A stretch of DNA of 5,277 bases from Oscillospiraceae bacterium (GTDB taxonomy: Bacteria > Bacillota_A > Clostridia > Oscillospirales > Oscillospiraceae), in contig SVLA01000134.1 in NCBI GenBank assembly GCA_015068175.1, forward strand, positions 1-5,277, written 5' to 3'. Position 1 is the first letter of the stretch; each line of letters opens with the position of its first letter. A program made the position numbers and the translations under genes. The notes under the pieces were generated by a model. It had not been told where the DNA came from. It worked only from the letters and a program-made list of their open reading frames with translations, and did no database searches. Shown here one piece after another: positions 2,695-5,277 of the stretch.

Positions 2695-3789
2695 TTACTT
2701 GGAATAAATGACGTTGAACAAGGTGATTTCACCGGTCTCTTCGTTCTGGGTGTAGGTGGCGGTGCCCACCTTTTCCAGGGATCCGTAGGGATCCTTGGCC
2801 GGCTTGGACTTGGAGTAGCCCCAGAGGGTGTCCATGGTGTACGCAGGATCGGCGGCCTGGCCGGCGGCGAAGGCCTCCTTATTCAGGATGTAGATGGACA
2901 CGGTGTATTCCGTATCCTTGTCAAACAGTCCCCGGTAAGCGCTGTCCACGATGCACACCAGAGTCTCGTTGCTGAAGGACTTATCCTGATCCTCCACAAC
3001 GGCAGTGGCGGCCTTGTTGGCCTCCATCCGCTGGGCATCGGAATAGTCGGAGGAACGGGAGGTGGTGTTGTAGCGGTCGTTGAGATAGAACATGGTGCCC
3101 GTCAGGCCCACGGCGATCAGCAGGACCATGGCCACCACCTGCTTGGTGCTGAACCGCAGGTCGGCATCGGGACAGAAGGTCAGGCTGAATTTCTGAGTCA
3201 CCGGCAGCAGGGCCTTCAGGAACAGAGTCAGCACCACGGTCTCAATGGGGAAGCACACCAGGTTCTTGAAGATCCGGGTGGTGGTCATGATGCCCATGAT
3301 GGAATTGATGGCGCTCTCCGGCTGACCGATGTAGGCGTAATACCAGGCGTAAATGAACTGCTGCAGCACCACGTTGACCAGCAGGCAGATGCCAAAGCGG
3401 GCCAGCATCACCCGGGTGGTGGATACTTTGCTGCGGTAAAGGAACAGGGCGTAGATCATGGTGCCGGCGATCTCCGTGAGCATAAAGGGCAGGAAATAGT
3501 CGCCGGTGGGCCAGATGATAAAGCCGATGGTGTCGGAAATGATGGCAGCGGGGATGGCGATCACCGGTCCGTAGATCATGGCGCCCAGGGCGGTGGCCAG
3601 GGTGGCGGTCTGGATGCTCAGGTTGGCGGCCAGGGGAATGGCCAGGGGTTTCAGGGCGATGCGCATGGCGGTGAGCAGGGCGGCGATGACCAGCATCCGG
3701 GTGTTGCTCAGCTCGGAAGCGGCGTCGCGCCAATATCCCCGGGAGAAGGGGTGCTTGTACAGGGTCGCGGGTCGGTTTTTGTTGGACAT
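2695..3789 (-). CDS. folT: Folate ECF transporter S component with C-terminal extension
   Basis: Substrate-binding membrane subunit of an energy-coupling-factor importer for folates. The 364-aa product has a FolT-type core in residues 28-200: L-x-N-T-R-M-L-V-I-A-A-L at the start of TM1, then IYGPVIAI (72-79), SDTIGF (85-90) and WPTGDYFLP (93-101), ending in LFLYRSK. That core is about the normal size of an S component. Beyond it come a further membrane segment (217-236) and a hydrophilic tail of about 128 residues that should lie outside the cell; I do not recognise this domain. No ECF ATPase or EcfT gene is adjacent, which fits a group II system sharing a module encoded elsewhere. The start at 3789 has AAAGGAGG eight bases upstream. 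The frame stays open back to 4062, but that stretch is the riboswitch leader. The THF riboswitch upstream independently supports a folate role. Confidence 0.92.
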   Translation of the reverse strand: MSNKNRPATLYKHPFSRGYWRDAASELSNTRMLVIAALLTAMRIALKPLAIPLAANLSIQTATLATALGAMIYGPVIAIPAAIISDTIGFIIWPTGDYFLPFMLTEIAGTMIYALFLYRSKVSTTRVMLARFGICLLVNVVLQQFIYAWYYAYIGQPESAINSIMGIMTTTRIFKNLVCFPIETVVLTLFLKALLPVTQKFSLTFCPDADLRFSTKQVVAMVLLIAVGLTGTMFYLNDRYNTTSRSSDYSDAQRMEANKAATAVVEDQDKSFSNETLVCIVDSAYRGLFDKDTEYTVSIYILNKEAFAAGQAADPAYTMDTLWGYSKSKPAKDPYGSLEKVGTATYTQNEETGEITLFNVIYSK

Positions 3790-3797
3790 GATTGATT

Positions 3798-3805
3798 CCT
3801 CCTTT
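3798..3805 (-). promoter_or_regulatory. Ribosome binding site that fixes the folT start
   Basis: AAAGGAGG on the minus strand lies eight bases before the ATG at 3789. It decides between this start and the longer open frame beginning at 4062, which has no comparable site and would translate through the riboswitch and its terminator. Confidence 0.88.
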
Positions 3806-3823: not shown

Positions 3824-3858
3824 AAAAAAATACCCCCGCGCGCAATGAGCGCAGGGAG
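3824..3858 (-). terminator. Riboswitch-controlled intrinsic terminator in the folT leader
   Basis: On the minus strand CTCCC-TGCGC, loop TCATT, GCGCG-C-GGGGG forms two 5-bp helices separated by one bulged C, then TA and seven Ts (3824-3830). It lies between the THF aptamer and the folT ribosome site, so it is a transcription attenuator rather than the end of a gene. The 5' arm (3852-3860) can instead pair with aptamer loop L3, giving an on/off choice. CCGGATC (3864-3870) and GATCCGG (3814-3820) also flank it and could pair. Confidence 0.87.
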
Positions 3859-3873
3859 TTCCAGATCCGGTAT

Positions 3874-3910
3874 GGGCAGGACGACAAAACAGCCGGTTTC
3901 ATCCTTGCCC
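3874..3910 (-). other. Long hairpin in the folT leader between aptamer and terminator
   Basis: The minus strand reads GGGCAAGGATG, a loop region, then CGTCCTGCCC. This gives ten base pairs with one bulged A and one G-U pair. It has no T-run after it. It probably stacks between aptamer and terminator and brings the two closer in space. Confidence 0.6.
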
Positions 3911-3928
3911 GACCGAGTATCGTTGCTA

Positions 3929-3951
3929 CATAAAGGAGAGTGTCCTGTATG
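3929..3951 (-). other. Short hairpin directly after the riboswitch aptamer
   Basis: CATA-C-AGGA, loop CACTC, TCCT-T-TATG forms two 4-bp helices separated by one C/T mismatch. It begins two bases after helix P1 of the aptamer. No function is known; it may simply be a spacer element or a folding checkpoint. Confidence 0.5.
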
Positions 3952-3952
3952 C

Positions 3953-4046
3953 AACAGCGGGTGCGGCGACAGCATCGTGGAATGATCCTTCGTCCTGCAG
4001 GCAACTCCCCGTCCTGAGGCACTTAACGCGCTGTCCCTACTCTGTT
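3953..4046 (-). ncRNA. THF (tetrahydrofolate) riboswitch aptamer
   Basis: The family binds reduced folates and regulates folate transport or synthesis genes. On the minus strand the element opens with AACAG-AGTAG and closes with CACCCGCTGTT, so AACAG (4042-4046) and CTGTT (3953-3957) form P1. GACAGC (4030-4035) and GCTGTC (3968-3973) form P2. Between them are the strongly conserved GCGTTAAGTG (4020-4029), a P3 stem CCTCAGG/CCTGCAGG with one bulge, the loop GGGGAGTTG, and GACGAAGG. The G-run of the P3 loop can pair with the CCC of CACCCGC before P1, as the family's pseudoknot requires, though this pairing is short here. Position just after a promoter and upstream of a FolT gene is the classic context. 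I matched it by eye to the known consensus. Confidence 0.93.
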
Positions 4047-4053
4047 CGTCATC

Positions 4054-4082
4054 ATCATACATGATTCTTCCAGAAAAGTAAA
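4054..4082 (-). promoter_or_regulatory. Promoter of the riboswitch-folT unit
   Basis: On the minus strand TTTACT (4077-4082; four of six -35 matches) and TATGAT (4054-4059; five of six -10 matches) are 17 bases apart. The predicted start is near 4047, immediately before P1 of the aptamer, so the RNA would begin with the sensor. Upstream, the minus strand is A/T-rich (GAAAAAATATC), as in an UP element. Confidence 0.75.
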
Positions 4083-4105: not shown

Positions 4106-4134
4106 TTGCCTCCCCCGGGAAAATGATGTATAAT
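4106..4134 (+). promoter_or_regulatory. Promoter of the CapA-like gene
   Basis: TTGCCT (4106-4111; four of six -35 matches), a 17-base spacer and a perfect TATAAT (4129-4134). Transcription should begin near 4141, giving a leader of about 40 bases with AAAGGAGG at 4167-4174. The -35 box is 23 bases from the -35 box of the oppositely oriented folT promoter, so the two promoters share one short divergent region. Confidence 0.75.
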
Positions 4135-4180
4135 GACGGTGTTGCGATCCGCAGATCAATTATCGGAAAGGAGGCCGGGT

Positions 4181-5277
4181 ATGGCCAAGCATTATCGGGC
4201 ACCGCGGATGCGGCGCTATATCCCCCGGCGCACCAAGTGGGCCATAGGCCTGACGGCGGTGGCGGTGATCCTCGTCGGATTGCTGGTGGCCGGCTTCCTG
4301 AAAGGCTGGATCAAGGTGCCCCAATGGCCCTGGGAACAGGAACCGGAGGTGACGGTGCCTACGGAGCCGAAGCCGGACACGGTGATCCACCTGGTGGCCG
4401 GCGGCGATGTGAAGGTCACCGGTTTGGGAACGGTGGATGACCACCTGGCCGCCCTGACGGATATTCTGCCGGTCCTGTCCGGCGCCGACCTGACGGCCTT
4501 GAATTTTGAAGGCAACGTCTATGCCGATGCCACGGACCGCACTTCCTCCCCGCAATTGCTGGATGCCCTGCGGCAGGGGGGCGTGGACGTGCTGCAGACC
4601 GCCAATTCCGAGTCTATCACCAACGGCCTGCTGGGCCTGATGGCCACCAATAACGCCATCCGCAATGCCGGCATGCAGCCTTTGGGCACCTATGCCACCG
4701 AAGCGGAATATGAACAGTATCGGGGCTATCTGATCTATGAGATCCAGGGCATCCGGATCGCCCTGGTGGCCTTCACCAAGGGCATGGACGACCGGAACCT
4801 GGAGGGCAATGAGCATTGCGTCAATCTGCTCTATACGGATTACACGTCCACCTATAAAGAGGTGGACAAAACCGGCATCACCGAGGTGATCCGGGCGGCC
4901 CAGGAGGAAGAACCGGACCTGATCGTGGCCATGCTCCATTGGGGCGGCCGCACCAGCGACCAGGTCAGCGGCACCCAAAAGCAGATCGTGAAGCTGATGA
5001 AAAACCTGGGGGTGGATGCGGTCATCGGCACTCATTCCCGCCATGTGCAGAAGATGGGCTTCGAGGACCGGGACGGGATGTTCGTGGCCTATTCCCTGGG
5101 GGATTTCATGGTGGACCGGGAAAATGTCACCACCGGTTACAGCGTCCTGCTGGACCTGGAGATCACCCGGGACGGCGCCACCGGCCAGGTGCGGATCACG
5201 GGGTACGATTATGTGCCCGTGTATCAGTATTACCGGGAAGACGGGACCCTGGAGCTGCTGCGGATCCGGGAAGCCAT
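4181..5277 (+). CDS. CapA family protein, membrane-anchored (3' end outside window)
   Basis: The first 365 codons of a protein related to CapA/PgsA, a metallophosphatase-like fold linked in some bacteria to poly-gamma-glutamate capsule export; most homologues have no proven role. Residues 1-20 are basic, 21-40 form one membrane segment and 46-66 are a Pro/Glu-rich linker, so the domain should lie outside the cell. Family motifs follow: AGGD (73-76), NFEGNVY (108-114), ANSESITNG (141-149), MLHWGG (251-256), IGTHSRHVQ (282-290) and YSLGDF (304-309). The third is odd, because relatives usually read ANNH-x-x-D-x-G: here Asn, His and Asp are replaced by Ser, Glu and Thr. GTHSRH replaces the usual GHHPH, and SLGDF replaces SLGNF. 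The start has AAAGGAGG six bases upstream. No stop occurs before the window ends. No pgsB- or pgsC-like gene is adjacent. Confidence 0.88.
   Translation, partial: MAKHYRAPRMRRYIPRRTKWAIGLTAVAVILVGLLVAGFLKGWIKVPQWPWEQEPEVTVPTEPKPDTVIHLVAGGDVKVTGLGTVDDHLAALTDILPVLSGADLTALNFEGNVYADATDRTSSPQLLDALRQGGVDVLQTANSESITNGLLGLMATNNAIRNAGMQPLGTYATEAEYEQYRGYLIYEIQGIRIALVAFTKGMDDRNLEGNEHCVNLLYTDYTSTYKEVDKTGITEVIRAAQEEEPDLIVAMLHWGGRTSDQVSGTQKQIVKLMKNLGVDAVIGTHSRHVQKMGFEDRDGMFVAYSLGDFMVDRENVTTGYSVLLDLEITRDGATGQVRITGYDYVPVYQYYREDGTLELLRIREA

Follow-up and report, generated by a model that had tools for sequence, protein, structure and literature searches.

The stretch of DNA analysed here, called the window, is 5,277 nucleotides long and carries on its minus strand a folate transporter gene, folT, behind a leader that contains a THF riboswitch aptamer and an intrinsic terminator. 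A divergent gene of the PGA_cap family lies on the plus strand (4133-5275) and starts about 50 nt past the promoter-like sequence of folT. The features of the folT unit, in the order in which they are transcribed, are the following.

4054..4082, minus strand: putative promoter TTTACT-17-TATGAT, by pattern match only, directly before the aptamer
3953..4046, minus strand: THF (THF-I) riboswitch aptamer (RF01831, full length, 76.1 bits, E 9.1e-17)
4002..4012, minus strand: L3, the P3 loop ACGGGGAGTTG, assigned from the RF01831 structure line, the pairing and the covariation with J2/1; pseudoknot strand and, at 4011-4003, proposed antiterminator strand
3958..3963, minus strand: J2/1, CACCCG; by L3/J2-1 covariation, L3 forms its pseudoknot with the CCC at 3961-3959
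3922..3955, minus strand: predicted hairpin (minimum-energy fold) that overlaps the P1 3' strand (GTTGCATACAGGACACTCTCCTTTATGTAGCAAC) and contains the anti-Shine-Dalgarno (anti-SD) CTCCTTT at 3938-3932
3907..3922, minus strand: element CGATACTCGGTCGGGC, conserved in the genus, between the anti-SD hairpin and the spacer
3852..3860, minus strand: anti-L3 strand AACTCCCTG, the 5' foot of the terminator, identified by conservation in relatives; conserved core R-CTCCC-Y at 3859-3853
3824..3857, minus strand: intrinsic terminator, with stem 3857-3849 / loop / 3841-3833 and T-rich tail 3832-3824 (TATTTTTTT)
3798..3805, minus strand: Shine-Dalgarno (SD) sequence of folT, AAAGGAGG, read from the sequence
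2695..3789, minus strand: folT, folate-family ECF transporter S component, 364 aa (TIGR04518, 67.5 bits, cut-off 60)

The RF01831 match covers positions 1-99 of 99, its 76.1 bits comparing with a gathering cut-off of 36, and the aptamer scores 79.2 bits with our own covariance model, in whose building the window was included. The gene downstream is a folate gene (TIGR04518 folT family). Its profile covers only residues 28-194 of the 364-aa FolT (2695-3789, minus), and by eye the C-terminal half resembles an extra membrane segment and an outer domain. Sequences resembling the window promoter (TTTACT...TATAGT/TATGAT) were seen by eye at the equivalent position in two relatives, L001 and L002. 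In the computed fold of the window leader, a spacer hairpin is predicted between aptamer and terminator; the terminator, which stands before folT with its T-rich tail, has a stem of -16.2 kcal/mol.

A preliminary description had claimed that L3 matches the 5' arm of the terminator over nine contiguous pairs, one of them G-U, and the letters bear this out: on the minus strand, 4011-4003 reads CGGGGAGTT and 3860-3852 reads AACTCCCTG, giving the pairs C4011-G3852, G4010.U3853, G4009-C3854, G4008-C3855, G4007-C3856, A4006-U3857, G4005-C3858, U4004-A3859 and U4003-A3860. The computed energy of this duplex is -13.1 kcal/mol. C3858 and A3859 have no partner in the terminator stem and lie outside the aptamer. 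In our judgement nine pairs within an 11-nt loop would strain P3, and six to seven pairs are more realistic. Among the 20-nt stretches of the window, counted on both strands, 236 of 10514 likewise offer at least nine pairs with L3, as do 1.8% of random 20-mers of spacer composition. Taken alone, the match in the window is weak evidence, being expected by chance about 2% of the time; its weight comes from relatives.

These relatives were identified through FolT, which matches two named Oscillospiraceae MAG contigs, both from one genus, at 66% and 65% identity over the best segment. The genus sample comprised 101 genomes, 88 of them with a THF aptamer, and 101 places. The genus set consists of 100 distinct places (100 fetched, plus the window, minus one duplicate), 99 of which come from one Oscillospiraceae genus, the window being counted together with them; 196 other loci bring the distinct aptamers to 296. 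The covariance model found the aptamer in 299/299 sources, which had been preselected by their RF01831 match and 36 of which were used in building the model. Among the genus leaders, 96 were located and 90 gave a terminator by our rule; 89 were analysed, L095 being dropped because the L3 pattern missed its L3, and this leader does carry ACTCCCC. Control terminators (n = 236) were obtained by the same rule from 400 kb, in 20 stretches of 18 genomes of the genus, with THF places avoided.

The pseudoknot of L3 was examined over 289 of the 296 distinct aptamers, L3 of the other seven being unrecognised by the pattern. L3 and J2/1 change together: GGGGA occurs with CCC in 192/193 cases, GGGAA with UCC in 56/56, GGGAT with UCC in 8/9 and GGAAC with UUC in 2/2. 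The exceptions are GGGAG, which lacks UCC in 7/17, GGGAC with UUC (3/4) and GGAGA with CCC (6/7). The window has GGGG opposite CCC. In the part of PMC11477058 considered, the L3 pseudoknot forms the regulatory THF site and the partner of L3 is named J1/2; unlike this designation, the covariation points to J2/1 as its place. For the THF-II structure, the part of PMC9881143 considered states that the pseudoknot site alone matters for gene control. The L3 bases that match the terminator are also those that covary with J2/1, so that L3 should be able to pair with only one of the two at a time. Both sequence and conservation are in line with an antiterminator pairing that engages an aptamer strand in a mutually exclusive manner.

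Our main finding is that the complement of L3 is maintained in the terminators of the genus. L3 contains GGGGAG in 95 of the 100 genus places, and 91 of these 95 have a downstream hairpin or terminator with CTCCC in its 5' foot. The motif is absent from the remaining four (L069, L076, L087 and L120), and the rule finds no terminator there either; the sole CTCCC of L069 lies within coding sequence, and L076 precedes folE (GTP cyclohydrolase I). A stricter automatic count gave the motif in 84/95 places; its 11 misses were these four, which are real, and L044, L046, L060, L067, L084, L096 and L073, the first six having CTCCC terminators found by the main rule, and all seven were added back to give 91. 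In L073 and L078 hairpin and motif are present and the U-tract is weak. A third rule placed terminators in 74/100 genus places, 70 of them with at least seven L3 pairs. The low automatic counts arise from the start-codon rule, which mis-cut genus leaders and often took the GGGGAG of the terminator for a Shine-Dalgarno sequence.

Compared with the controls, CTCCC is present in the 5' arm region of 87/89 genus THF terminators and of 14/236 control terminators. The two exceptions, L054 and L048, are both wrong choices of hairpin by the rule, L054 having GACTCCCT ahead of its true terminator. The true terminator of L048 starts AACTCCCT, though it lies about 130 nt farther from the aptamer than the median; the additional 130 nt or so before it are repeat-like sequence, and make this leader a natural test of the reach of L3. 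When nothing is anchored, CTCCC still ranks first among the 5-mers of the 5' arm region (88/90). Its complement GGGAG occurs in the 100 genus aptamers 100 times inside L3 and four times elsewhere. At least seven pairs with L3 are possible in 86/89 genus terminators and in 28/236 controls (29 with the other common L3). They are also reached in about 21% of trials with a permuted L3; matches of this length occur by chance, and in such sequence comparisons it is only the ensemble of leaders that is convincing. L3 is moreover the best upstream partner of the foot in 86/87 leaders, with a median pairing energy of -14.0 kcal/mol, compared with -8.8 for the next-best site and -6.4 for the SD.

A good terminator may by itself need CCC opposite GGG before its U-tract, and G-rich 3' feet are frequent in terminators. 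The terminator could then be a fixed attenuator, or serve another purpose, with CTCCC inherited and kept as a good foot; indeed, CCC is found in the 5' arm region of 85/236 controls, and all genus terminators may have a single ancestor. We consider this explanation improbable. It does not predict that CTCCC as a whole should be rare among the controls, as it is, nor that CT should precede CCC in 87/87 anchored terminators, where, by register, the stem leaves the C of CT unpaired in 71 and both C and T unpaired in 40. Because this C is mostly unpaired in the stem, folding of the terminator does not explain the conservation of CTCCC. Inheritance would in addition have spared the motif while both flanks diverged to near chance: over 88 terminators, pairwise identity averages 0.858 within the motif, against 0.275 upstream of it and 0.328 inside the stem, in an alignment whose anchoring fixes the five letters CTCCC, for which the unbiased figure is the 87/89 given above. 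The columns flanking the motif on either side hold 0.01-0.60 bits, mostly below 0.35. For sequences of this kind, we take the divergence of the flanks to be a better argument than the Fisher p value, which ignores relatedness.

The limits of the conserved pairing can be read from the neighbouring bases. The base before CT is a purine, which is what a pair with the U of L3 requires, in 60 of the 71 stem-unpaired cases (p 2.6e-9 against 50%, relatedness ignored). Over all 92 rows, among them the L069 match in coding sequence, this base -1 is A or G in 76 and T or C in 16, so that the outer pair between L3 and the arm, as predicted from these letters, is not always kept. At base -2 no preference for pairing with U was seen. 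With the pairing part of L3 invariant in the 95 places, the genus cannot reveal compensatory change in L3 and the arm; the variation that exists is one-sided and only of the kind compatible with pairing (purine opposite U, pyrimidine opposite G). The genus has a second type of THF aptamer, in L127-L131, whose L3 is GGGAGGTTG and which is without CTCCC; L129, the one tested of these, precedes a different ECF S component.

The same complementarity could be read the other way round, the GGGG of the terminator 3' arm mimicking L3 and capturing J2/1, instead of L3 capturing the 5' arm. We give this reading very little credence: a GGGGAG 3' arm does exist in some leaders (for example L002, L040 and L042), but the C and T of CT are both matched in register by the 3' arm in only 16/87, so that in most leaders the 3' arm does not extend as GGGGAG and CTCCC stays in the 5' arm all the same. 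The match of L3 to the foot, its conservation in the genus independently of terminator pairing, and the covariation of L3 with J2/1 can be regarded as established at the level of sequence comparison.

Whether L3 could open the terminator is in part a question of timing. Free folds and folds constrained to the L3-arm helix, the check put forward in the preliminary description, favoured the L3-arm helix for the growing RNA and left it about even or weaker for the finished one. For an RNA ending at 3849, whose 3' arm is not yet made, the L3-arm state is computed at -81.0 and the best fold at -72.3, the cost of the pseudoknot being excluded. For the whole leader, the unconstrained best fold is -88.4 and contains the terminator, which stays in the fold when L3 is forced single-stranded (-86.1); with the L3-arm helix, the value is -90.0, again with the pseudoknot cost excluded. 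The finished leader is therefore balanced or favours the terminator, and according to these models the terminator would probably win over the L3-arm helix at equilibrium. The computed energies are close (-16.2 for the terminator, -13.1 for the L3-arm duplex). L3 would have to act during RNA synthesis.

On this basis we propose, as the likely reading of these sequences, that the folT leader works as a THF-I riboswitch of the transcriptional kind, whose pseudoknot loop L3 also serves as antiterminator strand. When THF is scarce, the L3 core GGGGAGU (4010-4004) would pair with the foot R-CTCCC-Y (3859-3853) as soon as the latter is transcribed; the upper stem of the terminator may still fold, and would stop short of the U-tract, allowing read-through into folT. 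When THF is bound, L3 would be locked in the pseudoknot with J2/1 and the foot left free, so that the terminator closes and folT is off. We infer three points: the helix forms in the cell, THF chooses between the two states, and the sign with ligand is OFF. An L3 antiterminator, which THF would withdraw, is what the preliminary description had suggested, and this suggestion held up in the comparative tests: the anti-L3 strand is kept where its bases are not required by the terminator, the motif is absent where the terminator is, and L3 is the best upstream partner of the foot. Two features come in addition to that description, namely an anti-SD element between aptamer and terminator, and an apparent lineage specificity.

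The anti-SD element raises the possibility of translational control. AAAGGAG of the folT SD is the exact complement of 3938-3932, and arrangements like the hairpin at 3922-3955 were also seen by eye in relatives. Across the genus, CCTCCTTT or something near it is often kept as anti-SD and pairs with the SD region, with a median of -18.9 over 83 of 95 leaders, the other 12 of which could not be scored. The pairing is strong in the terminator-less L087 and L120. Control could thus be purely translational: THF would stabilise P1, the hairpin overlapping P1 would open, CTCCTTT (3938-3932) would pair with the folT SD, and the match of L3 would be secondary. The strength of anti-SD pairing in many genus leaders and its retention in L087 and L120 speak for such control, as do the mostly short and, by eye, translational-looking leaders examined outside the genus and the terminator-like hairpins in only 16/196 other loci, by a rule that under-detects in the genus too. 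A purely translational switch nevertheless leaves both the terminator and its conserved anti-L3 strand unexplained, and the pairing that extends past the SD core is better than shuffled sequence at z < -2 in only 42% of the 83 leaders (median z -1.48). The window matches only in the SD core, and its pairing beyond this core is not superior to shuffled sequence (z +0.67). We hold this alternative to be unlikely, and a second, anti-SD lock in the window itself is uncertain. It is plausible that the terminator module was added to a translational leader. More tentatively, and somewhat against our expectation, the genus may have two locks in series, L3 acting on the terminator and the P1 neighbourhood on the anti-SD hairpin, the terminator having been inserted into an ancestral, purely translational leader.

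Next to the anti-SD hairpin, the element CGATACTCGGTCGGGC (3907-3922) is exact in 45/100 genus places and 0/196 others, and GATACTCGG, a part of it, in 69/100 and 1/196; of the four leaders without a terminator, three have the element. No pairing partner for it was found. The conserved CGATACTCGG seemed, by eye and in a few leaders, to form a long helix with the spacer ("P5"); tested on 78 leaders, this helix did no better than with shuffled spacers (median z -0.4). RNAalifold on a gapped spacer alignment of 57 leaders (14 of 71 having been dropped by the pattern) gave no structure.

Outside the genus, the common arrangement in the leaders examined by eye is an SD-sequestering hairpin adjoining the aptamer, and leaders are short, with a median of 70 nt versus 170 by a rough rule. 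Seven of the 16 terminator-like hairpins found in the 196 other loci have at least seven L3 pairs; L255 and L263 are of the CTCCC type, and the other five pair mostly via U-rich or G-U-rich arms. A pattern search for CTCCC...GGG...TTT in the leader retained 6/98 other loci with L3 GGGGAG. One of them, L291, was set aside by eye as an SD hairpin, which leaves a similar foot in 5/98 (L020, L161, L238, L255 and L263). Some of these five may come from the genus itself or from a sister genus; the genus of G257, the source of L161, has nine genomes. L012 and L022, other THF loci with terminators, have no anti-L3 foot. L300, with L3 GGGAAG and arm CTTCC, was suggestive as a case of covariation and was rejected, as its six-pair run, counted by eye, is at chance level. 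Five loci whose L3 is ATGGGAAGTCG (L150, L273, L296, L298 and L303) have strong terminator-like hairpins with U/C-rich 5' arms, and may represent a further THF-I platform acting on transcription; the gene after L298 has a Mur ligase domain (folC by eye). The L3-terminator platform looks specific to this gut-bacterial lineage.

If the proposed mechanism is true, a riboswitch can signal whether ligand is bound by way of its pseudoknot loop instead of the closing helix P1. The long-range partner of the loop would be a seven-letter conserved island in an otherwise free terminator, and complements of ligand-locked loops would provide a search rule for expression platforms. We found no description of an L3-antiterminator platform in the literature searched, the primary THF-I papers (Ames 2010, Trausch 2011, Huang 2011, Trausch and Batey 2014, Wilt 2021) lying outside its coverage. 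The part of PMC13273304 considered presents whole-riboswitch models for other classes, and tetrahydrofolate occurs in that paper only in a reference.

The novelty is that of an expression-platform variant of THF-I, not of a new riboswitch class. With the known THF-I (RF01831) folT leaders, the window shares the aptamer, the gene, the L3-J2/1 pseudoknot and the expected OFF sense; outside the genus these leaders have, by eye, mostly a short SD-sequestering platform, to which the genus adds a terminator with an anti-L3 foot. In strand exchange of the xpt-pbuX type, P1 is the shared strand. As in the P1-type exchange of the xpt-pbuX purine riboswitch, described in the part of PMC10907184 considered, an aptamer strand would be reused in the antiterminator; unlike it, the reused folT strand would be the pseudoknot loop and not a P1 strand. 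The guanidine-IV riboswitch, in the same part of PMC10907184, also has a pseudoknot into the terminator hairpin that destabilises the hairpin; there, however, the ligand promotes pairing with the terminal loop of the terminator and the switch is ON, whereas in the proposed folT switch the loop of the ligand-free aptamer pairs with the foot of the stem, and the switch is OFF with ligand. Finally, the ZTP (pfl) riboswitch shares the competition of a ligand-stabilised pseudoknot with a terminator, whose formation disrupts P3 and the pseudoknot, the switch being ON with ligand (PMC10907184 and PMC13273304, in the parts considered). ZTP-type invasion of the aptamer P3/pseudoknot strand is not what the window presents, as its aptamer ends at 3953 and its terminator begins at 3857; unlike that of ZTP, the folT terminator stands 95 nt beyond the aptamer, and it is the loop that would reach out to the terminator.
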